A DNA stretch of 64,000 nt from Leptodontidium sp. MPI-SDFR-AT-0119. Its lineage: Eukaryota > Ascomycota > Leotiomycetes > Helotiales > Leptodontidiaceae. The stretch is from assembly GCA_020726505.1 (NCBI GenBank), contig JAHLEZ010000012.1, positions 1,612,001-1,676,000 of the forward strand, given 5' to 3'. Under the pieces are notes generated by a model. That model was not told the origin of the DNA. It saw only the letters and a program-made list of their open reading frames with translations, and did not search any database. Shown here in pieces: positions 22,650 to 45,126 of this stretch (its first letter is position 1; the number at the start of each line of letters is the position of its first letter). A program made the position numbers and the translations under genes.

Positions 22650-24184
22650 ATGCAGCTCCTTTACTTGCTTACGGCGTTGTCTCTACTTTTCAATTCTACA
22701 ATTGCAATCCCACAGTCTTTCCATCTTCCAGATGCCGTGGATCTCCTCGCTGCCAAGGGCCTTGTCAATCTTGCGGTCTACCAAACAAAAGCACACAGCA
22801 AGTGTACAGTTAAGAACGCTGTCAAGCGAAGAGAATGGTGAGATCTCCATTATGCTTGAAATTTTGCTCTGCTGACCCAACGCAGGGGCGATCTCTCCTC
22901 TCCTGACAAGAAGAAATACATTGCTGCCGTCTTATGTCTCCAATCTAAGCCATCCAAAACTCCAGCCTCCGTGGCCCCAGGTGCACGATCAAGGCAAGTG
23001 ATTGCGGGATAGTCCTGAATTCATTCCCACATACCTTATACGTTTCCCTGTTCACTAACTCTCGAGCATCTAGATACGATGACTTCGTTCTTGTACACAT
23101 CAACCAGACGTTAACAATTCATGCTACAGTATGTGATCTACCAGCTTTTCGTCGATTCAAGTCGCTAACTAGTTCAGGGCAACTTTCTCTCCTGGCACAG
23201 ATATTTCGTCTGGGCATATGAGACGGCTCTCCGAGAAGAGTGCGGCTACAAGGGTTACCAACCGTACTGGAACTGGGGCCGTTACGCTAGGTTCGTCTAA
23301 TCTTCGTGTGGCTTACAGAACTGATTGAAAACCAGTGATCCCATCAACTCTCCATTGTTTGACGGCAGCGATACAAGTTTATCGGGTAATGGACTCTACT
23401 ACAATCATACCGGCGTTCCCGTCACTGGCGCTCCACCGCCCTTCGATGTGATTCCACCAGGCGTTGGAGGAGGATGTGTTACAACCGGCCCATTCAAGAA
23501 GTAAGCCTCACAATTTTACCCCCCTCACGGACCACAATGGTAAAAGAGATTAACATCCACCAGCATGAGTGTAAATCTCGGCCCCGTATTCCCGTCAATC
23601 TCAGGCGTCCCTCCAAACCCTCAATTTGACGGCCTAGGATACAATCCACGCTGTCTTCGCCGAGACATCAATCCCCACGCTGCAGCCGTGACCGCCACAA
23701 ATTACACCTACAAGCTCATCACCGAGCCTCTGAACGCTGATATCTACTGGTTCCAGACTGTCATGCAAGGCCAATTTGCAGATGGGAAGTGGGGTGTTCA
23801 CACAGGTGGTCACTTCACGATCGGTGGTGATCCAGGAGGGGTAAGAACACTCCCTTGTCCTAAATTAATAGCAAACTGTGAAATAAAACATACATCTGAC
23901 GTGCTTGCTTCATATAGGACTTCTTCACCTCCCCCAATGACCCAGCCTTCTTCCTGCACCACGGCATGATCGATCGTGTCTGGTGGATCTGGCAAACACA
24001 GGACCTTCCCGCTCGTCTAAAAGCTGTTTCCGGGACTCTCACGCTTTTGAATGATCCACCGTCTCGCAATGCGACTTTGAATGATGATGTTGACTTGGGT
24101 TTGATTGCGCCACCGGTGAAATTGGGGAGCTTGCTGGATACGATGGGTGGTCTGGGAGGCGAATTTTGCTACGTCTATGTTTGA
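22650..24184 (+). CDS. Secreted tyrosinase (UstQ-like) of the RiPP island
   Basis: Seven exons: 22650-22837, 22886-22993, 23074-23128, 23178-23290, 23336-23500, 23564-23840 and 23918-24184, giving 390 residues. A signal peptide covers about residues 1-19. The CuA site is His107, His115 and His124 (in WHRYF), the CuB site His289, His293 and His316 (in FFLHHGMID), with normal spacing, so both coppers can bind and the enzyme should be active. The family oxidises phenols to o-quinones; in ustiloxin-type pathways such proteins work on Tyr of the peptide. Intron 2 uses a GC-AG border (AAG|GCAAGT), the only reading that keeps frame. It lacks the long C-terminal lid domain of melanin tyrosinases. Neighbouring UstY genes and a Tyr-rich repeat precursor fit peptide tailoring. 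Confidence 0.92.
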
Positions 24185-24474
24185 GTCCATGGAGTTCCAA
24201 GTGTAAACTCTGAAGACCTCTTTAAGGAGACTGAAAATGGTGTGGTAGTCGTAGATCTTTTATGCTTCTAGCCAACTTGGCCCAATTTATTTTGTACAGC
24301 AGTTCTTGACTCCTACAGTCAGTCATTCGAACTGGCTGTGTCGAACTTTCTCCTTTTCAGTCATCCCTAAGCCAGACTTCCATCTCTTCATGCGACTTTC
24401 ACAAACTGCCGCAGTTCCAATACATCATAAAATTCTTATATCCCACGTGGCTTCTGACTGAAGCTCCCCTCACA

Positions 24475-25432
24475 TCACCTCGCTGGCAAATTCTCATCCA
24501 TCCACTTCCTCGATGCATCCCAACTCTTACACTCATGCTTCATCCCCACCCCACTAATATGCGGTCCTTCCCCATTCCTCTCATCCGCCGCCGCCTCAAT
24601 CGACATATCGCCCGCACACATGATCCCCTGGCGAATATAATCGAAACAATGGTTCACATGTACCATCTCCTCTTCCAAGCCATCGTTCTCAGCCATTTTG
24701 AGATTACGGTCGCCTCGGAGTGCTTGCCAGTAGAGAGTACGTATCATCATCTGAGAGCGGATTAGTGATACGACGATAAGATAAGTTTCTTGTGAGATTG
24801 AAAAGATTGTTGTTAGGGTGGACTTACCAAGCAGTGGAGTTGGTGGTACATACTCACACCGTAATTCTGCACGTTGGGCGGCATGTGAGGATTCGACACT
24901 CCGTCCAGCAACCCATATTGTTCCGGGTCTTTGATTGATACGAAACCCATGCCAGCTTTCCACAAAATATGTCAGCACCATAGTCTTCAGAGGCAGGGGT
25001 TGTCTTGCAGTCCTGGGTTGAGACTCACGACCGAGTAAGTCCATCCACATCACATTATTCTCGATGGTTGGAGCAGCGCTGTAGTCCGAATAATTTCCGA
25101 ATATGATAGCCTCTGTCGGTACTAGGAGAAACCACCATCAGCAGATGTCTGTCATCTAGGTCGAGGGTTGACTTACAATTGGGAACTGGACCTTTCCGCT
25201 CCGTCGATTTACTGCGAAATGCGACCCCGAACACAAGAATCACTGTTAATAAAATGGCTAGAACCATTGTCGTGATTGCAAGATGCCGTAGATGTTTCCA
25301 ATCTCGTGGCTTCGATTGTTGTGGGTCTTTTTCATCGATCGTGGAGGAAGTTTCGATGTCTGAGAAAGTTTCGTCGTCACATCGCTGGCGAGACTCATTC
25401 TCGTCGCCGACTGGGGAGTACCGTGTTTGCAT
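24475..25432 (-). CDS. UstYa-family oxidase 1 (DUF3328)
   Basis: Four exons: 25432-25177, 25121-25029, 24955-24828 and 24750-24475, giving 250 residues. A single membrane segment lies at about residues 50-72 after a polar N-terminus, so it is a type II membrane protein of the secretory pathway. The conserved core has GMGFVSIKDPEQYG, then YHQLHC (His154, His157, Cys158) and HVNHC (His190, His193, Cys194), the two HxxHC motifs that define UstYa/UstYb oxidases. The C-terminus has a HECKSWD box as in the family. These enzymes oxidise or cyclise dikaritin peptides. An ATG 48 bases upstream is a possible alternative start. It is convergent with the tyrosinase gene and divergent from the second UstY gene. 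Confidence 0.92.
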
Positions 25433-26212
25433 CACTGCGATCCTGTGATTGAAATGCTGGAGATGATGTAAATCGTACACAGCTTCTCACGTATTCCACG
25501 TGGTATGTGTTCCCTTGCTGCAGACAAAGTCTAGATACCGATGCTTGCTCTACATCACCTGTCCTGAGATGAGATGAGACATGAGCTAATCAAGTGATGC
25601 TCACCACGTCCATCGTATTTATCTTTGAAGAGGTTGCTGAGAATATAAGCATTATGTTGTGCAGGGTACTCGGTAGTTGCACCAGTCCCCATTTTTGGCT
25701 AAGCACCTCCTCCATTCGGACACCTGCCCCTTTGGGCCTTCTTCCCCGGCCCGGCCCATTATGCTTATCTCCCCCACTGCTAATCCCCCTGTGGGCCACG
25801 ATTACCGAATATTAGTATATCTTCAAATCAATTGTTGTCTCTTATTATTTTGCACGACGGCATTCGTTGACCTAAGCTGAGGAACGGTGTGGTGTGGTGT
25901 AACGTTTATTGATTTTTCTCTACTAATATCACTCAGCGATGTGTCGAGACCACTGCAATAGTTACACCACTTTTGAGATTTCCGCATTCATGATGGCCAG
26001 GAAAATATTTTGATGACCACTTACTGTGCTTTCGTTATGCTGCTCACTCGCACTGCTATCGTCATGCTACAAATGGCCTATGGCAACGAACTATCGAGAA
26101 GTATCGAGTAGACTTCTCACACATTCTCAATCTCATCTCCAAAAGTCAATTTTCTTCGACCAGAATTCCTTCTACTCAATTCAAACCATCAATAGACACA
26201 TGTTTAGCACCT
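25433..26212. promoter_or_regulatory. Divergent promoter of two ustY genes
   Basis: 780 bp between the starts of oxidases 1 (-) and 2 (+). Contains a GGTGTGGTGTGGTGTAACG stretch near 25887. No coding frame is supported. Bidirectional control is inferred from geometry. Confidence 0.5.
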
Positions 26213-26954
26213 ATGGCACTCACACAGAACTCATGGTACACTCCCAAAAACACCACCCACCAAATCCTCTTCATCCTCCTCGCCAGCAGCGCCACCTCCG
26301 GCCTCCTCATCGCCATATTCCGCCAACAAATCCACTCCAGCATAACCGATATCTGCCAAACAATATCCAAATCCCCTGAAACCACCATAACCACGCCCTT
26401 CGAAGCAAACTTCACCTACCAATCTCTCAACCCAGAAACCGACAACCTATGGAATCAACTCGTAACGCCGAATGGCGGGTTTGTCCTAGACAACTTGGGG
26501 GATGAGTCGCAGGTTTATGGAGTGGGGATGTTCCATCAACTTCACTGCCTGCAGATTTTCAGGAACCATTTACAGGAGATGTACTCGAAGATGGATGAGA
26601 GCAAAGGCAGAAGGATGGAGAGGGGTGTGGTTCATGGGCATCATCTTGACTTGAAGCATACATTGCATTGCATGGATTATTTCCGTCAGGTAGGTAGTTC
26701 AATGTCTTCTATGTATTCATACACAGTAAGGAGTGACGCTGATGCGGAAGTAGGTGTTTCTCTGCTTCGCTGATGACTCGCTTGAGCCTTCGATAGTGGG
26801 CCCTGAAGGTGGTTTGCCAACCACGAATGGGATGGTGCCGCATCAATGTCGAGATCCTTCGTCGTTGTATGAAAGGTCTTTGGCGTCCCATGGGTCAAAT
26901 TTCAACTCTCGGACGATTCCTCAAGGAGGGGAAGCGCATATGCATGGTCACTAA
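26213..26954 (+). CDS. UstYa-family oxidase 2 (DUF3328)
   Basis: Two exons, 26213-26689 and 26754-26954, giving 225 residues. The N-terminus is short, followed by a membrane segment at about residues 17-36. FHQLHC (His108, His111, Cys112) and HTLHC (His149, His152, Cys153) are the paired HxxHC motifs. The splice joins CMDYFRQ to VFLCFADDSLEP, the standard family continuation. The tail contains PHQCRDPSSLYE, comparable to the HEC-type box of other members. It is the shortest of the three UstY proteins of the island, and its inter-motif spacing is the same order as the others. Likely role: copper- or metal-dependent oxidation of the precursor peptide in the secretory pathway, by analogy with ustiloxin biosynthesis. 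Confidence 0.9.
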
Positions 26955-27719
26955 GGCAACTTCATCTCCCAAGGCGTTCGGAGGGGGTTTTAGGCTGCTG
27001 TAGCTCCATTCTAGAGCTATATTCTAGAAAGACATAGTTTGAGTCCGAGGAATGTTCTTCATGGTCAGAAAAGAACCTACTGAACATTATAACTCTCATA
27101 TATCGATCACCTCTCGTGCTGTGATCTATACATCTTCAAGTTCTCAGGGGACGCTTGATGGAGGTTTTTCTTGATTGATTGTACGCCACAGTCCTATTTT
27201 CCACCTCACATCCCCCTGGTCTGTGAATGAGTATGAATATTGGTTGGAAACTCCGGATTCAAATTATCTTCAGTTCTTATTTTAGCCATAAGAGGACTCT
27301 AATACCTTCTGGCATAGTAGAGTGCTTGCGGATGCGAGTAGAAACAGCGCGCAATCGCAAAATTTCGAAGCCTGAGGTCCAGTGCTTTCTGGCTGCAGTG
27401 ACTTAAAATTTCATCTCACTTCTCTACATTTACAGCATTTCATAATTCCTGAAATTGAAACAGAAGACTAAATAGAATACGCAGTGAAGTCACTTCAGTA
27501 ATTTTTGAAGCCGTTGAGAAAAAGTCACCGTACTCGCAGATATTGTCGAATTCGATACCTGATTCCCGCATTGCCACATCGATACCACATAGCTCAGCAT
27601 CCGCAAAAGCCAGCCCTCAACAAGAAAACAATTACAAGTTATCAATCCTCATGTTTTTCTTCATGATTCGCATACGAAAATCCTACAACGACAGTCAGCC
27701 CCAACCGTCCCTATCAAAT
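26955..27719. other. Convergent 3' intergenic region within the island
   Basis: 765 bp, AT-rich, between oxidases 2 (+) and 3 (-). No coding feature supported. A short plus frame at 27543-27959 is antisense to the last exon of oxidase 3. Confidence 0.4.
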
Positions 27720-28874
27720 TCAAATGCCCATAAACGTACCGAATTTAGGATGGTGCAAGTACTTCGGATCAAAGATGTCAATCGACCTCTCTTTCGACCA
27801 ATTATCGATCTTCTCCCAATTGACGCACTCGTGCTGGATCCCAAAGTTTGGCCAAGGACCAGGAAAATCTGGAAGCCATTCGTAGGTCATGAGTGCTGTG
27901 TCGACTTTGCACATTACGACTTGTCGGAGCATCTCAATGCAGTGATCTGGTTATGTTAGATTTCTTGTTTCGCTGTTGACTGAGGAGATTTCGCGGTACT
28001 TACTGACGTGGTCTTTCACTGGCACGTTCGTGTCTCTTACTGTGTAGTAGTCTTGATGGACGTATTGCCGGATATATTTCTGAAATTTTGAAGTCAGCAG
28101 GGGTTATGTTGTCGAGCTTGAACAATACTAACTAAGCAATGGAGCTGATGGTAGACATCTGATATTTGTTTCAGTTGACTTCTCATTTTCCCCAAGCCTA
28201 AATTTTCCTTACCCAGCGTCCCAAAATAATCCCCAGACCCATCACTCAACTCGATTGATGGTCTTCCGGTCCGTTTGATCTCATCCTTGGTGACCCGAAT
28301 ATTTGCGTCTAGCCGCACGTCAGAGGGGGCCAGGAACACATCTTTGAGTCAAGACTCACAGCGAAAAAGCGAGGACCAAGCGTCATCAACTTCCAGCGAT
28401 GGCTCTGCATTGAATATATTTGAGGTCTGGTTGATCTTGACACTCAAAACCTTTGCTTCCCGTGAAACGGCTTCCTGGGCCGGGGCTGTAAGAAACCAAA
28501 CTTAGTATCTGTGAAACCAAAGAGGGTCTCAAGAGTGACTTACTGTATATGACGGATGAACAGCCTCGTGACTGTTGGGGACGAGACACGACAAGGAAGC
28601 AAATTATGGAGTAAGTGAAGACCAGTAACAAATGAAAGACAACTGGATGTCCGCGCAAGAAACTCTGCAATCGCTGAGGCCATGCCAAATTCTCCTCCGC
28701 GCTATCTCGACTTCTGTTCCTTTTTGCCAGCCAATTCCATACGCATTTCAGCGAGAATAATCTTGGTCTGGACTCCTGTCGGTGGTTGAAGTGGGCAAGG
28801 AGTTTCTCTTCGTCCCCCACCCGCTCCCCCTCAAAACTGTCTCCCGAAGCAAGATCGGTGTAAATGGGCTCCAT
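27720..28874 (-). CDS. UstYa-family oxidase 3 (DUF3328)
   Basis: Six exons: 28874-28544, 28485-28360, 28308-28213, 28158-28133, 28079-28004 and 27946-27720, giving 293 residues; every phase matches even though exon 4 is only 26 nt. A membrane segment covers about residues 77-97. YHQLHC (His188, His191, Cys192) and HVNHC (His217, His220, Cys221) are both complete, and the C-terminus has a HECVNWEKI box. The preceding DDAWSSLF and GDYFGTL segments are typical of UstYa proteins. An ATG 36 bases upstream is an alternative start. It is transcribed away from the precursor gene across a 449-bp shared promoter region, the strongest positional link between an oxidase and the putative substrate. Confidence 0.9.
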
Positions 28875-29323
28875 TGTTTTGTTTTGGCTGCTCGACGACA
28901 TCAACACCACTTTTTTAAGGATGAAATCGAGAATGCGACACGTCGATAAAATCTAATTGAAGATTAGGAAACGGTGAGGGGAGAGGTTCGAATCCAGGAG
29001 CGAGTTTCTAGATCTCCCTCGCTAGTGTTTGAGGCTGCTTGTGACATTCAACTAAGCGGTGATACTTGCTGACACATGGCGTGAGCATATGTATGGAAGC
29101 GTAATATTATGGCAATGACGATCATTCTCAGCGTTAGCATTACGAAGCACATCTCGATCCTTACTAACCTCCAGATATCGAAATCCTGACGAGCTGAGAC
29201 CAAAGGCTTGGGGAATTTGACCATATATATGCTCCCAACATGCCCACAGTGTTGCAAATACCACAACATTCCAGTTCCAAACACGCAAAGATTCAACCAA
29301 GACCCAGCAAAAGATCATTCAAG
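28875..29323. promoter_or_regulatory. Divergent promoter of ustY 3 and the precursor gene
   Basis: 449 bp between the start codons. A TATATAT-containing stretch lies at about 29223 upstream of the precursor. No coding frame supported. A place to look for the binding site of the ToxE-like regulator. Confidence 0.5.
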
Positions 29324-30250
29324 ATGCGTTACCAACTCCTCGCCGCGATCATCGGTTCAGCCGTAGCCCTTCCTATCGCTGGTAAGTGTTTTTCCCAAAA
29401 TGATGCGATGTACCAGTCACTAAGCTCTAGTAGATCCCAAGCTCGCAAGCTACAGCATAAATGTCAAGCGAATTGAGTCACTCGAAGACACTGCACTCGG
29501 AAACTACTTTGAAGCTTCATTCTTTGACGATACGAACGTTGCCAAACGTGCTGAGTCTGTTGGAGACACTGCGCTGGGAAACTACTACGAGAGAAAGGGT
29601 ACATTCTTTGACGGTTCGAACGTTGCAAAGCGTGCCGAGTCGGTCGGAGATACCGCACTTGGAAACTACTACGAGAGGAATGCTGTCTCCAATCTTGGAA
29701 AGCGAGAGAAAGCCGCCAGTGACTCGGCACTTGGAAACTACTATGAGCGCGCCTCTGAGTCGGCGTTGGGAAAGCGGGCTGAGGCGGTCGAGGACCCAGC
29801 GCTTGGGAACTACTACGAGCGGAATGCCGTCTCGTCTTCTAAAAAGCGAGCGGAGTCTGCATCGGATGCGTGAGTTCCATTTACTGAAGACATTCTTTTT
29901 GGTCTTGGGTCTTCAGCAAAAGCCTTTGATCATTTCAACTATTTGATAGATGTCAGGAATACCTCAATGCTGATTTGATAACTAGCGCACTCGGGAACTA
30001 TTACGAGCAGCGAGCAGCCGATTCTATCGACAAGAGATCTGAGTCTTCTGGCGACCAAGCCCTCGGGAATTACTACGAGGTAGAATCTGAGTTTGGCGGC
30101 GACGAAGCACTTGGGAACTACTACGAGCGCAGTGCGGTGTCCAAAGTGAAGCGTGCCGAGTCTGCTGATCAGCTTCTTGGAAACTATTGCGGTGTCGCGG
30201 CAAGAGATAAGTCTGCTTCTGACCAAGCACTCGGAGACTATTGTGGTTAA
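29324..30250 (+). CDS. Repeat-containing dikaritin-type RiPP precursor
   Basis: Three exons, 29324-29381, 29434-29869 and 29986-30250, giving 252 residues. A signal peptide covers about residues 1-18. The rest is ten tandem units, each with a short core: ALGNYFE once (40-46), ALGNYYE seven times (starting at 66, 94, 118, 142, 166, 190, 206), then LLGNYCG and ALGDYCG. Lys-Arg pairs at 31, 57, 85, 109, 133, 157, 181 and 220 flank most units and are Kex2 cleavage sites. A spacer like AES-x-x-D precedes each core. This is the architecture of UstA/PhomA-type precursors: secreted, repetitive, Kex2-processed and Tyr-rich. It sits among three UstY oxidase genes and a tyrosinase. Both introns are in phase; intron 2 splits a repeat just before its core. 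The core sequence is unlike the ustiloxin, phomopsin or asperipin cores I know. Confidence 0.93.
29485..30250 (+). repeat. Ten tandem precursor repeats
   Basis: DNA-level tandem units of roughly 48-84 nt inside the precursor gene, recognisable by the recurring GGAAACTAC(T)A/GGGAACTAC box. Units 2 and 3 are nearly identical over their first halves, a sign of recent duplication. The last two units are divergent. The run is interrupted by intron 2. Confidence 0.85.
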
Positions 30251-31784
30251 ACATAATGGCTTCTGTGGCAAGACGGTAGGTTCTCGTCCTAGAATCATCT
30301 CGGAATTTTCAGCTCGCCTTGGAAGTTTGCAATCCTTCGCAATCCTTCTTCGCGCGTAGTGCATTCATGGCGGGAATGAGAAACTCGCTGACATCCTGTG
30401 TCAAGATGGAACTTCGTCTAGACATCGATTTACCATAAGACCCATCACAGGAACTTGGAACATCTGGAGTTGGAAATTTGGAGATGGGTTGGGGTTTGCT
30501 GGTAGCTAGTGTTCTTCTGATTTCTCCCAATGGCTCAAAACAAAAATTTCAGACCATGCACACAAAATTTTGCCTACGATCACTTGTGATAACTTGAACA
30601 ATTTCTAGTAATTGAGACCAACGTGGCCTGGAAGGTATGGTAGTCTGAGCTATCAAGTTATGTTGTTTTATTTAGCATTTCTGAGGAGGTCTGTGTAGAT
30701 TGACATCGTGGCTGCAGTACTCCCCCCCCTCCACCCATAAACCCATAAACTCGGGGCGGAGAAGAAGTTGAACCCACTGTGAATGAAAGGCACGTCATAT
30801 GCCGGCTATTGAAAATGGCGGAATTAAGCATTTTTTGAGATATTCACCGTTGAGATGGCGGTGAGGTGTGGTGTCACTGCGAAATCGAAGCAAGTGATGC
30901 TGCGGTGTAATAGTCTGCCAGAATTCAGACACAGAAGTTCCGGTGTTACAAACATATATTCTCTCTTCATAAAACTTGCACTTCTTTCCCCGAATTCGGT
31001 CATTTACCCCGCGCAGTAAAGAAGCGAGGATGCAAGCGAGCCAAACCAATTCATTTCTCCGCCGACAACGAGCCTTTTGTACCACCAATCGAGGTAACAT
31101 TGCAGTTATAGATCCAGCAGTCTCCAAAGATCGCTCAGGATTCTAGACCATGGACAGAGATGTGGCGGTAAGCTCACCGCTGCATCGTATTCCTCATTGT
31201 AAAGGCATTCAGAGTGCGGAGAATCACCTCACTGGCCGAGTCACCACTTACCCCCGATCGAACCAGCATCCGCGGAGGTTCGCACTTGGTCAAGATGCTA
31301 GCAGCCGAAAGTTTCCTCTCTAGATGGTGGACGTTTCTGGACTATTCATCTGAGAATTGCCTGTCGTTCGCTAGCATGGCATTCCAAACAGCAGTTGGCT
31401 GAAACCATAGGGTTTATGCTGTTGAAATTGGATTTGAAGTTGCACTTCAAATATCCACTTTCTTTCTGGTGACCGCCAGATCATATCAATCTTACTGCTA
31501 ATATGTACTATACCGAGGAGTTAAACTGTATGTGTAGTATGTCAGAGTGGGCGATTGGCAAGTTTGCCACTTCGATGCTACCGGTGGGGAACGACAGACC
31601 CGAACGAACAGCTTCATAAAATATAAATGTAATGATTTACCACTCTATGCCGAGACTGTTCCAATTTTCTTGAAGAACAAAATATCTCACACACAGCCCT
31701 AACTCATCTTTATTTGATAAGTTTTGCTGCAAAGACTCTCACTGTACGACTACACACGTACTTGAAACTTTTATTTTCAGCAAG
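30251..31784. other. Intergenic region between precursor and regulator
   Basis: About 1.5 kb. Frames at 30795-31127 (minus) and 31214-31402 (plus) have no family features. A C-rich patch with a doubled CCCATAAA lies near 30725-30750. Likely holds the precursor 3' end and the regulator promoter. Confidence 0.4.
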
Positions 31785-32622
31785 ATGGAGCGCAGGAAGC
31801 TACAAAATCGAGAAGCGCAACGCAGATACCGCGAGAACATCAAACGGAAACTCAAGATAGCCGAGAGGCAGCTAGAGACTCGACGAAGTTCAGATGCCAT
31901 GTTTAGCAACTTGGATAGTACTTGCGGGTACGGAAACCATGATGCTGAGAATGTGGTGGAAAATGCTTGCAATGTCGACGACGCGCTTGTAGCTCTGGAT
32001 TGCTCCTCACCAGCATTAAGTTTCGGTTGGTCAACACTCTTCCAGTTCAAATTTTAAATGAACGTCGATCATTTTCTTACTTTAATCAGACTGGACGTCG
32101 CTTAACTCGTCCTGCCGCATGCAGCCTGGGCTTGGCTTGCTCTCACCATCTGAGAGCATTTTGGTAAGGAGAATCTGGGGCAACTTCCGGTACTTCCAGT
32201 TGATTGACAATCGATAGGACCATTCTCCACTCCGATCCGCTCTGGGCTCTACGGTCATGCACATAGCCGCCAGAAAAGGTTACCACACTATCGTTCGTAT
32301 CCTGTCTGAATCCGGAGTGGACATTTCAGCCAGAGACGACTCTGGTCAGACTCCACTGCACTTGGCAGCGGCCAATGGGCACTCAGAAACCATCGTATCT
32401 CTACTGGAGGCTGGAGCAGAAGTTGATGTCAAGAACAGTCAGGGGCATACACCATTGTTTGCGGCTGTCAGTAGCGGAGACGAACTTTCCGTCAAAACTT
32501 TGCTAGAAAGTGGGGCAGATCCAAATGCGAGGGTTTCAGTTGCAATGCCTGAAGTTGAACGGTGCTCTATAGAGGACAGTGGAGTAGTTAGCTTCTCTGC
32601 GGAAGACCCAAAGACAAATTGA
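31785..32622 (+). CDS. ToxE-like bZIP-basic-region/ankyrin transcription factor
   Basis: Three exons, 31785-32025, 32090-32163 and 32218-32622, giving about 239 residues. The N-terminus (residues 2-24) is a bZIP basic region with the N-x2-AQ-x2-YR signature (NREAQRRYREN), but no heptad leucine zipper follows. The C-terminal exon encodes about three ankyrin repeats (VMHIAARKG, TPLHLAAANGH, TPLFAAVSSGD). This unusual pairing is the hallmark of TOXE, the pathway regulator of HC-toxin genes, and of related regulators in other secondary-metabolite loci. Hence it is probably the pathway-specific activator of the neighbouring RiPP genes. The first donor (TTCG|GTTGGT) is my choice; an alternative six bases upstream also keeps frame. 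The protein is shorter than TOXE. Confidence 0.82.
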
Positions 32623-38792: not shown

Positions 38793-40833
38793 ATGGATTT
38801 GTTTCGAGAGTCGGCTGTAGGCCAAGTGATTCGATACGCAACAAGGAACAAGTACCTGTTGTATCCTGAAGAGAAAGGGGATTTCCACTGGGCACCACTG
38901 GTAGGCAACTCCAATTTCCCATCTTTGCTTTAATTCCCAAAAGCCAACAACATCCAGGATGCACTTCTAGCTGAAAAAGACAACCCGACAACTTCCGGGG
39001 AGAAAGCGCCTCAAGACAATCCCGCTTCAGACAGCGACAACGAATCCAGGGAGAAGAAAGCACAAAAGGATGTCAAAGATGACGAAAATGCCGAAACACA
39101 AGATCCAACGCCCTTCCGTCTCGAATCCATCAGAACAGGAGGTAACGACGAGGCGATCCGTACCCAGACCAACGGCTCAGCCGTCAATCGAGAGTTGACT
39201 CGCACCTCCACAGCACCATACACCCGTGAACGATTCGACGTCGAGCAAGGGATAGCAGCTGAACGGACAAAGTCCATTGCCATTGCACCAGCTAAGACCA
39301 CTGATGGTACGATCCTCGTAGACTGGTACACTACCGATGACATTGCCAACCCGCAGAATTGGACATCCTCCAAGAAATCTATCGTTCTCCTTCAGCTATG
39401 CATGTACTCTTTGGCCGTCTACGGGGCCTCTAGTATGTATGTCCCAGGCGAAGGTGGAGTGATGGGAAAATTCCACGTCGGAGCTACACCTGCAGCAATC
39501 GGTCTCGCTATCTACGTTGTTGGATATGGAATAGGTCCCTTGTTGTTCGCTCCTATGAGCGAGATTGCCTCGATAGGGCGAAACTGGGTTTATGTGCCAA
39601 CTTTCACTCTGTTTGTTATTCTGTCGATCCCCACTGCTGTTGTGGATAACTATGGCGGCTTGTTGGTACTCAGATTCTTGACTGGCTTCTTTGGGAGTCC
39701 ATGTCTGGCTAACGGAGGGGCATCCGTTGGAGACATGTATTCTCTGCTTGAACTTCCTGTGTACCTGTCAGCATGGACGGCAGCTTGTTTCTGGGGCCCT
39801 GCCATCGGTCCCATTATCGCTGGGTAAGTCTCTCTGTACCATGTTTGAGCCAATACTAAACCCTTGCCCAGATTTGCAGTTCAAGCCAAGGGGTGGAGAT
39901 GGGGACTTTGGGAGATTGTCTGGATGACCGGTCCAATTCTCACTGTCTTCCTTTTCGCATACCCAGAGACATCCGCAGACAACATTCTCCGTCGCCGAGC
40001 ACAGCGTCTCAGAAAACTCACTGGACGGGATAACATCAAATCGAAGAGCGAAATTGAGCAAGCTAAGTTGAAGGCTTCTGAGGTATTCTGGGATGCTATT
40101 ATCAAGCCTATCGAGATCATGGTTAAGGACCCTGCTATTACATTCACGAACATCTACGTGAGTATTCTTCTTTGATTCTGTCATCATCATGTCTACTTTT
40201 GATTGAACAAGACTGACAAAATAATAGACATCACTCACCTACGGCATCTACTACTCTTTCTTCGAAGTCTTCCAACTTGTCTACCCCCCAATCTACCATT
40301 TCAACATTGGTGAAGTGGGACTCTGCTTCCTCACGATCGGGGTCGCTTGTCTCATTGGCGTTATTGGCTTCCTGATCTACCAATTCAAGTACCTCATACC
40401 AGACATCAAGAAGAACGGTCTTCGGGAGCCAGAGCATCGACTCGTCCCTGCTCTTCTCGGTGTCGTATTCCTCCCCGTAGGATATTTCATGTTCGGATGG
40501 ACTGCACGACACGCTGTCCATTGGATTGTTAGTTTGATCGGTGTGACGATTCTCGTTACTGCGAACTTCCTGATCTTTCAATGTGTGTTCGTTTACCTGC
40601 CCCTCTCGTACCCCAAATATGCGGCAAGCTTGTTCGCGGCAAACGATCTTTCGCGATCTATGTTTGCGGCTGCTTGCATTCTGTTTTCCAGACCCATGTT
40701 CATCAACTTGGGTATCGGGGGTGGCGTGAGTCTGTTGGCTGGGTTGTCGTGCCTTGGTGTCGTTGGTATGTTTTACTTGTGGAAGTATGGCGGGTGGTTG
40801 AGATCGAAGAGTACGTTTGCTGCTCATAATTAG
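38793..40833 (+). CDS. MFS transporter, DHA1-type multidrug/metabolite exporter
   Basis: Four exons, 38793-38900, 38958-39823, 39872-40157 and 40228-40833, giving 621 residues. The short first exon encodes MDLFRESAVGQVIRY...YPEEKGDF, the usual N-terminal motif of fungal DHA1 transporters; without it the long exon has no start codon, so the splice to 38958 is needed. A hydrophilic linker precedes a 12-helix MFS core with VGYGIGPLLFAPMSE (loop 2-3 motif) and GRNWVYVPTF. The central cytoplasmic loop is charged. Family members export drugs, polyamines or secondary metabolites at the plasma membrane. Lying about 6 kb beyond the RiPP regulator, it could export that product, but this is only positional. 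Confidence 0.88.
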
Positions 40834-42964: not shown

Positions 42965-44308
42965 TCAATCTGCTAAAAATCTCCTATCCAAAGACCGAAC
43001 ATTCTTCTCATCATCTCTATGAACCTTAATAGTCTGATAAGCTATATTCCTCTCTCTCAAGTCCTCCCAACGAGTCTCGCCAAATGCCCCTGCTGGTCTC
43101 AAGCTCGCCTGCTGAACTAGAGGCTCGATGTGATGGGACTGATGTCTGCTGATTCTTTCTCGTTCCAATTCTGGCATTGGGAGAGAAGAGCAGGGCGGAC
43201 AAGAGAGGTATTTCATGTCGATTTTGATAGATTTGGCTGTCGCGGACGGCATTTCGATGTTGTTTGGAGTAATTTGATGATATAAGTGTCCCTCAGCGCT
43301 ATGTGTTCCGACCGATGGAATGGCTGCTTTGATGAGAGAATCTTTTTGATGAGGAGTGATGAACGAATTTGGAGATCTTGGTGGCGATGCAAGAGGACAA
43401 ACCACGGATTGGAAAGTCTGCTGTTGTAGCGTACCGAAGGGCAACGAGTGTGTTGAGATACCAGCCGGTTGGAGACGAGAATATTGAGGGTGATGCAACT
43501 CATATGGTGGAACAATCGGCGCACTTTGTGAGAATGATTTAAGCAGCATGCAGAGGCTCATGAAATCGCTACCCCAAGCTTGTGCACGGCTTGACGAAAC
43601 ATCGCGAAGGTGGTTTGGATCAACCGGGAGGTGCAATTGTTGGGATGGAGGCAAACTAACATTGGGATGCGTACCCATGAAAGGCGATGGACTGATGATA
43701 TGTGAACCTCCCTCGGCTACCTTGTGTCTGTATTTCGAATTGTTGAAATTATTGGGGAAAGCCACAGAAAGCCTTGCTCCAATCTTCTCCTCAATTAGGT
43801 GTCTGAGACAATGATCACTGGTCGGTGTCGGCAGGTCTGGGCTGTTACCACGACTCGGGTTGTGGTAAGTCACCAAGTGAAGTTGCCGCCCGGACGTGGT
43901 GATGGTCATGGATTTCCTTACAAGTCCGTTTGGCTTGTAAATATACCCATCTGTCGCTCCATCGTCAGTTTGCAGATCCAGGTCTCTTCCCCGTGGATTT
44001 GTTTTCCCATGGGCATCTAGAGCATCACTCTCGTCGACAATGCTCGTCCTCCTAACCTTTCTCTCCATTTCTCGACGTATGATGAAAGTTTCCGACAACG
44101 CGATCGAGCCCCATAGCCTTCCATCCGTCCAGCGTTGAATCCCAGCTTCCAATTCGTCCCAAACGAATACCGCTCCAGGCGATATCAAGACCTTCCTCTC
44201 CTTCCGTGACAGGCGACGCAGAATTTTTGGCAAAACGTCTAGTTGGCATGCCTCAAACAGCAGGATTGCATCTTCTCTGGTGCGGACATAGCCTTGATAT
44301 GTTGCCAT
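42965..44308 (-). CDS. WOPR (Gti1/Pac2) transcription regulator
   Basis: An intronless gene of 447 residues from the ATG at 44308; an ATG 24 bases upstream would add eight residues. The WOPR domain is in two boxes: TYQGYVRTREDAILLFEACQ at the start with VFVWDELEAGIQRWTDGRLW, and, after a linker, GLVRKSMTITTSGRQLHLVTY (about residues 135-165). The rest is disordered and Pro/Ser/His-rich. WOPR proteins (Wor1, Ryp1, Sge1, Pac2) bind DNA through both boxes and control morphology, pathogenicity and secondary metabolism. The RTREDAILLFEA form is closer to the Pac2 branch than to Sge1/Ryp1, which I infer from memory. Target genes unknown. Confidence 0.9.
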   Translation of the reverse strand: MATYQGYVRTREDAILLFEACQLDVLPKILRRLSRKERKVLISPGAVFVWDELEAGIQRWTDGRLWGSIALSETFIIRREMERKVRRTSIVDESDALDAHGKTNPRGRDLDLQTDDGATDGYIYKPNGLVRKSMTITTSGRQLHLVTYHNPSRGNSPDLPTPTSDHCLRHLIEEKIGARLSVAFPNNFNNSKYRHKVAEGGSHIISPSPFMGTHPNVSLPPSQQLHLPVDPNHLRDVSSSRAQAWGSDFMSLCMLLKSFSQSAPIVPPYELHHPQYSRLQPAGISTHSLPFGTLQQQTFQSVVCPLASPPRSPNSFITPHQKDSLIKAAIPSVGTHSAEGHLYHQITPNNIEMPSATAKSIKIDMKYLSCPPCSSLPMPELERERISRHQSHHIEPLVQQASLRPAGAFGETRWEDLRERNIAYQTIKVHRDDEKNVRSLDRRFLAD

Positions 44309-45126
44309 GATGATAACCGAGTGCAAGTTCAAGGGTCAAATTTGAAGATGTTGAGATGATTTGGCATTAAATATGAAAGTTAATAAAGCTAGCAGTCAAA
44401 CATAAGTACGAGGAGACTCGTATACTAATATGAAGGTGAAAATGATCACGCTGTAAGGCCATTCTCCTGGCCCTCCTGACCACAGCCGGCAGGATCCCAG
44501 GGCGACTCGGCGCCAACCAATGCCACGAGATACCTGCCCTGAGTGATCCACTTGAACCCTGATGACTCGAATTTTGGTGGAATAGCATGCTAAGGAGAGT
44601 ATGCTTTGATTCTCTGACCTGTCTGGCTGGAAAGCGATGAACACTGTATGGCCCAGAACTTGGCGGGTCTCGAAAAGAAGCTCGGCAAGCCACTGCCAAC
44701 ATGTGCGCCAATACCCAAAGGCCGGGTTGGCAATAGAGGCTAAGCATTGCGGGACGTAGACTTTGTTTAGTGCTTTTTTGATGTAGTTATGAAACCTTTC
44801 GGGTTGTAAAGAAGACATGAAGCGCTTTTGTGTTATGTTGTATGTAGGGAGGACTGGGCATAGAGTAAGATTCCGCATGCTGCGTAACGCCATGCTCGAC
44901 TCAGCACCAATGACTTGAAGTCAACAGCTTGGTCTTTCAAGTGAGATGTTGTTGAGTATTATTACGCGATAGAACAATTTACGAGCTAGGTCATCAGGAA
45001 AACGAGAAATGGAGGAAAGCTTTAGGTAGATTCAAGTTCAAATCTAATTTTACGCTGGGAGCAACAAAACCTCCAACCCCATCTCACAGCCCCTCCAACG
45101 TCCTCTCCCCATGTTCCCAACCTATC
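44309..45126. other. Intergenic region, WOPR promoter side
   Basis: About 820 bp. A 165-codon minus frame at 44396-44893 overlaps the expected WOPR promoter and has no recognisable features. WOPR genes usually have long leaders, so I do not call it a gene. Confidence 0.35.

Follow-up and report, generated by a model that had tools for sequence, protein, structure and literature searches.

A six-gene cluster of probable dikaritin type with a selected repeat core in a root-associated Leptodontidium

Do the six neighbouring genes at positions 22650-32622 of the window (the whole stretch analysed here, 64,000 nucleotides from contig JAHLEZ010000012.1 of Leptodontidium sp. MPI-SDFR-AT-0119) together make a ribosomally synthesised and post-translationally modified peptide (RiPP), and if so, of which kind? 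A sequence-only reading had taken them for a dikaritin-type RiPP cluster with a TOXE-like regulator. It is very probable that this cluster of a root-associated fungus is indeed of dikaritin type, i.e., a Kex2 repeat precursor with UstY oxidases, and serves to make a small tyrosine-crosslinked peptide. The gene models were spliced by hand, that of USTY3 being corrected with the aid of orthologues; each splice model yields an open protein, and the interval holds six intact genes with introns. As had been claimed, the splice models and Pfam matches place a repeat precursor (itself without a Pfam family above its cut-off), three UstYa-family proteins and a secreted tyrosinase within 10 kb:

22650-24184, + strand: TYR, secreted tyrosinase; 7 exons (22650-22837, 22886-22993, 23074-23128, 23178-23290, 23336-23500, 23564-23840, 23918-24184), 390 amino acids
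24475-25432, - strand: USTY1, UstYa-family oxidase (PF11807); 4 exons, 250 amino acids
25433-26212, no strand: divergent intergenic region of 780 bases common to USTY1 and USTY2, from gene-model geometry
26213-26954, + strand: USTY2, UstYa-family oxidase (PF11807); 2 exons, 225 amino acids
27642-28901, - strand: USTY3, UstYa-family oxidase; 7 exons (28544-28901, 28360-28485, 28213-28308, 28133-28158, 28004-28079, 27740-27946, 27642-27682), 309 amino acids
28902-29323, no strand: divergent intergenic region of 422 bases common to USTY3 and PREC, from gene-model geometry
29324-30250, + strand: PREC, secreted Kex2-type repeat precursor; 3 exons (29324-29381, 29434-29869, 29986-30250), 252 amino acids
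29493-30247, + strand: array of 10 cores in PREC with one intron inside (29870-29985); ALGNYFE, seven ALGNYYE, LLGNYCG, ALGDYCG
31785-32622, + strand: BZANK, regulator with a basic region and ankyrin repeats (Ank_2), TOXE-like in layout; 3 exons, 239 amino acids

Apart from the two divergent regions, the gaps within the cluster measure 290, 687 and 1534 bases, the first of them lying between the ends of TYR and USTY1. Statements on published systems follow excerpts of the articles cited.

The repeat precursor and its core

The N terminus of PREC is hydrophobic and, by hydropathy only, signal-peptide-like, and the protein contains eight Lys-Arg (KR) sites, ten cores and no Trp. ALGNYYE makes up seven of the cores, and ALGNYFE, LLGNYCG and ALGDYCG occur once each. 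When the copies are aligned on the core, Asp at position -2, Leu, Gly and the first Tyr are invariant (10/10), Ala and Asn are each present in nine of the ten, and the second Tyr in seven. The register relative to the predicted cleavage sites is equally regular: among the eight copies that stand first after a KR site, the first Tyr occupies position 12 of the fragment in seven and position 11 in one, and the core Ala is residue 8 of the predicted Kex2 fragment in 7/8 (core D-x-A-L-G-N-Y-Y-E). Of the eight predicted KR-cut fragments that follow the leader, six have a length of 24-28 residues.

Comparison of the copies shows that the core peptide is under purifying selection, because synonymous divergence (pS) in the core is high while nonsynonymous divergence (pN) is low. 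Pairwise values for the copies are pS 0.73 and pN 0.10 in the core, 0.80 and 0.44 in the five codons upstream, and 0.79 and 0.67 in the seven codons downstream. Since the core columns were picked for conservation, the low pN taken alone is partly circular, which does not apply to the similar pS of core and flanks. In the Leu and Gly columns, the amino acid is identical in all 45 pairs, but the codons differ in 29 (Leu) and 24 (Gly). With a pS of 0.73-0.80 in core and flanks alike, the copies do not seem to have arisen by recent duplication.

Written as a degenerate DNA word, GNYY(E/D) is met seven times in the window, each time within PREC (0.01 expected), and 17 times over the whole genome, where a search with PREC finds only PREC itself. 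The core words ALGNYY, LGNYYE and GNYYER were not found in the literature searched, and the core sequence is thus undescribed as far as searched; the earlier claim that ALGNYYE is unlike the cores of known systems holds insofar as the passages available name cores.

UstY oxidases and class membership

Matches to the UstYa profile hidden Markov model (PF11807, cut-off 25 bits) confirm the proposed three UstYa-family oxidases at 63-186 bits: USTY1 scores 104.1, USTY2 63.4 and USTY3 169.8 bits in its first model. The correction of the USTY3 model is supported by a rise of this score to 185.5 bits. By hydropathy, each of the three proteins has a single segment that could span the membrane as a helix, and each has two HxxHC motifs (at residues 154 and 190 in USTY1, and 108 and 149 in USTY2), which have been proposed as the UstY active site (PMC12048977). 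In an alignment of USTY3 homologues comprising 21 of the 22 UstY3 matches, from which P0008 was left out as its gene model looks mis-spliced, the two His and the Cys of either motif reach at least 90% conservation. Database homologues show UstY3 to be conserved over several genera, and the entry P0007 (same strain, Leptodontidium sp. MPI-SDFR-AT-0119) holds part of USTY3 and by eye agrees with our translation except at both ends. Elsewhere in the same genome, two UstYa loci with KR-spaced repeat precursors contain the best paralogues of USTY1 and USTY3.

The current view of ustiloxin biosynthesis has Kex2 cleave the precursor and UstQ, UstYa and UstYb form the first cyclic intermediate (PMC6514808). 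By analogy, Kex2 and UstY proteins probably act here as well: PREC would enter the secretory pathway and be cut by Kex2 after KR, the membrane-anchored UstY oxidases, probably aided by the secreted tyrosinase, would crosslink the core via the invariant first Tyr, and other proteases would trim the crosslinked peptide, which would be secreted. The second Tyr might allow an extra link or a hydroxylation in the seven copies that have it, but it is predicted to be non-essential given the Tyr-Phe and Tyr-Cys variants of the core. BZANK is the likely regulator of the pathway.

How this cluster is classified depends on the definition used. Under the broad one, DUF3328/UstY is the class-defining enzyme of dikaritins (Montalban-Lopez 2021 as cited in PMC12048977), and the cluster has three UstYa proteins together with a repeated core, KR sites and, by hydropathy, a signal peptide in PREC; the crosslinked Tyr side chain that this definition also expects of the product is predicted here. 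The strict one (Ding et al., as cited in PMC12048977) asks for a tyrosinase, for a methyltransferase and for a transporter or peptidase in the cluster; here there is TYR, with a putative role in the pathway. Scans of the six models, of flanking proteins and of 20 of the 91 intergenic open reading frames (ORFs) of at least 50 amino acids give no methyltransferase above its Pfam cut-off, though a gene of short exons could escape such scans, and the same scans find no transporter or peptidase inside 22650-32622. The core EDYxI reported for ustiloxins and phomopsins (PMC6339444) is present in 0/10 cores of PREC. The cluster was therefore rejected as a member of the strict ustiloxin/phomopsin type, with no EDYxI and neither a methyltransferase nor a peptidase found in these scans, while dikaritin type in the wider sense remains the best reading of UstY proteins, repeat, KR sites and tyrosinase. 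That the genes are the same trio as in ustiloxin, phomopsin and asperipin clusters was an overstatement, the asperipin cluster being described without a tyrosinase in the passages of PMC6514808.

Comparison with these systems shows both common and distinct features. The asperipin-2a cluster of Aspergillus flavus (aprA, aprY, aprT, aprR) likewise combines a multi-core precursor with UstY, and its core FYYTGY also has adjacent tyrosines (PMC6514808); the present cluster differs in having three UstY proteins, a tyrosinase, an ankyrin regulator and the core DxALGNYYE, with no transporter or reductase found inside. With the ustiloxin B cluster (ustA, ustYa, ustYb, ustQ and tailoring genes) it shares a KR repeat precursor, more than one UstY and a tyrosinase (PMC6514808), but no methyltransferase, cytochrome P450, flavin monooxygenase or pyridoxal phosphate enzyme was found, and the predicted Kex2 fragments are mostly 24-28 residues long here versus 13-14 in UstA. 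The phomopsin cluster (phomA, phomQ, phomM) resembles it in its tyrosinase, KR-flanked repeats and several DUF3328 genes (PMC6514808), of which phomopsin has five (PMC7329392), whereas here the core is another one and no methyltransferase, S41 peptidase or zinc-finger regulator was found. PREC also resembles the Kex2-repeat proteins with DUF3328 neighbours (PMC7329392), which have a signal peptide, repeats, KR sites and DUF3328 within a few genes; it differs in being without a match in the database searched and in core words that were not met with in the literature searched, and it may or may not belong to one of the 838 types recorded there.

Tyrosinase, regulator and rival readings

The identity of TYR as a tyrosinase is borne out by PF00264 (201.6 bits). 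Its gene has one GC-AG intron (22994-23073), its N terminus is signal-like, and, with ligands assigned by motif, His 107/115/124 and 289/293/317 fit two copper motifs; the closest solved structure is a catechol oxidase (4j3p, E 1.1e-108). The names UstQ and PhomQ do not occur among the best 120 of its 1837 database matches. Homologues of TYR and UstY3 lie on same-sized contigs in Leptodontidium PMI_412 (371,908), Cadophora MPI-SDFR-AT-0126 (3,254,938) and Rhexocercosporidium (2,913,991), i.e., in all three genomes that list both and have a tyrosinase of TYR's own clade; at contig sizes of 0.37 to 3.25 Mb, this shows linkage of the two genes but not adjacency. Of the 25 tyrosinase loci in the genome, four (the window's included) have one of the 32 UstYa loci no more than 10 kb away, where uniform placement would give 0.23. 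A scan for tyrosinases and peptidases in Sclerotinia sclerotiorum is reported to have led to a co-expressed cluster round paired DUF3328 genes (PMC6941272), with a gene that may or may not be of TYR's clade. Judged from sequence, TYR likely has a part in the pathway.

The proposed ToxE-like regulator stood as far as the ankyrin repeats of BZANK are concerned, which are clear (Ank_2, 137.3 bits). Its N-terminal basic region looks bZIP-like, but the match to bZIP_1 (PF00170, residues 2-26) is weak and below the cut-off of 27.6 bits (11.4 bits, E 0.35). TOXE of the HC-toxin locus of Cochliobolus carbonum also combines an N-terminal basic region with C-terminal ankyrin repeats beside secondary-metabolite genes (PMC3729494). 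The two proteins are likened by layout, not by direct sequence, and the sub-threshold bZIP match and the lack of a Tox box in the cluster set BZANK apart. A second regulator with the layout of BZANK possibly exists elsewhere in the genome: a bZIP-like basic region, RREQNRLAQRNFRK (L040:1450-1755, + strand), is followed about 0.8 kb on by an ankyrin match (G000:C12:965006-965332), adjoining a UstYa locus at C12:967-973 kb.

Several findings weigh against a single pathway formed by all six genes. No orthologous precursor was found: a database search with PREC, limited to proteins of similar length having short words in common, gave nothing at E 0.001 from 5944 candidates. The two exact matches to the Tox box ATCTCNCGNA in the window both lie outside the cluster (2.44 expected), and no promoter word is common to the cluster genes above chance. 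In the three genomes with linked homologues, TYR is better conserved (98/86/88%) than UstY3 (91/64/71%, to the first USTY3 model). The clade of TYR takes in Oculimacula, Botrytis and Sclerotinia, of which no UstY3 relative is among the matches listed. UstY3 matches exist for Cadophora M221, C. gregata and C. DSE1049, but the best 120 of 1837 tyrosinase matches include none of TYR's own clade from them, where clustering of the proteins at 90% may hide one. The tree behind these clades, computed from TYR and 39 of these 120 matches, comes from a quick search with SH-like approximate likelihood-ratio (SH-aLRT) support only, and 11 of its 36 inner branches are open.

TYR belongs to a broadly conserved clade and is possibly only a neighbour. 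On this account the precursor, the three UstY proteins and the regulator make the peptide, and TYR is a conserved secreted enzyme of catechol-oxidase kind that adjoins them by chance. The occurrence of its own-clade relatives outside the listed range of UstY3, its slower evolution and its closeness to catechol oxidase (4j3p) all favour such independence, as does the characterised asperipin cluster, which does without a tyrosinase. Yet the contig linkage in three genomes, the excess of tyrosinase/UstYa neighbourhoods and the mere 290 bases between TYR and USTY1 speak against coincidence, and we regard it as rather unlikely.

Alternatively, PREC could yield unmodified, linear secreted peptides with a signal or surface function, the UstY genes serving another product. 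Such a division of labour has precedents, since 6,120 of 7,878 Kex2-repeat proteins are without a DUF3328 neighbour (PMC7329392) and UstY proteins are also found in non-RiPP clusters (PMC12048977). It is nevertheless improbable here: PREC and USTY3 have a divergent region of 422 bases in common, the cores are rich in Tyr with the first one invariant, PREC without Trp is unlike the WxW mating-factor type (PMC7329392), and no polyketide synthase or nonribosomal peptide synthetase domain is found in the proteins and ORFs scanned. Finally, a silent or decaying cluster, with intact genes yet no product, would fit the degenerate last two cores (LLGNYCG, ALGDYCG) and the database's holding only a partial USTY3 from this genome, but is very improbable in view of six intact reading frames, purifying selection on the core and conservation of UstY3 across several genera.

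Flanks, related loci and meaning

The dikaritin-type cluster is bordered by genes of other kinds. One side has a kinesin, in agreement with what had been claimed for the flank (PF00225), and the other flanking proteins, of metallo-beta-lactamase type and a pyridine-nucleotide oxidoreductase (PF07992), are consistent with the suggested sulfide oxidation. Past these two sulfur-type genes lies an MFS transporter gene (39195-40833, + strand; first ORF PF07690, 50.1 bits), which could be of use to the cluster, though set apart from it. About 10 kb off the cluster is a Gti1/Pac2 family protein (42965-44332, - strand; PF09729, 118.7 bits), a family which we take to be that of the WOR1/SGE1-type regulators.

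The kind of cluster is already known, since 1,758 such precursors are on record and the same genome has more of them. In 2020, 7,878 Kex2-repeat proteins were reported from 1,345 of 1,461 strains, the 1,758 having DUF3328 neighbours and some having tyrosinase genes nearby (PMC7329392). For the present genome, 20 of the 32 UstYa loci were read for repeat precursors (17, a further two and the window's); four of them, the window's included, have a clear KR-spaced repeat precursor, at two more (C22 and C26) the repeat proteins lack regular KR spacing, and C23 shows a weak repeat. The precursor in C56 (L037:3947-4378, - strand; G000:C56:745946-746377) carries seven copies of QTVEDYVGGIDVDKKR-like units with a VEDYVGGID repeat, near a UstYa exon (C56:744591-744803) and tyrosinase matches (C56:748638-751873); with its EDY core, it looks nearer to the ustiloxin/phomopsin type than the cluster of the window. 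In C45, six copies of YVHGSYGYDKR (L018:4494-5120, + strand; G000:C45:1438993-1439619) belong to a locus with nine UstYa exon matches (C45:1436-1448 kb). The short tandem precursor in C4 (L027:6401-6595, + strand; G000:C4:2606900-2607094) has RDEGYHSDKR six times between UstYa exons, in a locus that also holds a 40% paralogue of USTY1. The C26 repeat protein (L029:2173-2589, - strand, near 543 kb) consists of five AENLYFRGYKINKE-like units without regular KR, less than 2 kb from UstYa exons, and the HHTEAQIA repeats in C22 (L023:76-926, - strand, near 239-240 kb), about 2 kb from UstYa exons, may be the di-histidine type G-3 of PMC7329392.

The cluster is hence a real, intact and selected RiPP gene set of known kind, whose regulator is less usual and whose core is undescribed within the scope of the searches; it is not a new class. 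Beyond this, we put forward only tentatively that three UstY proteins and the tyrosinase, acting on a non-EDYxI core under a TOXE-like switch, make an undescribed scaffold, i.e., an Asn-Tyr-Tyr ring or bicycle from D-x-ALGNYYE, which would be kept in root-associated and plant-infecting Helotiales (Leptodontidium, Cadophora, Rhexocercosporidium, Rhynchosporium, Diplocarpon) and might have been overlooked as its precursor gene is unannotated. The chemistry of this class has been worked out for only a few members, and the locus contributes to it a defined, testable core peptide together with a compact gene set; it also offers a case where the tyrosinase's part can be told apart from the one played by the UstY proteins. 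Which Tyr carries the crosslink is directly predicted by the natural variants of the core (Tyr-Tyr, Tyr-Phe and Tyr-Cys).

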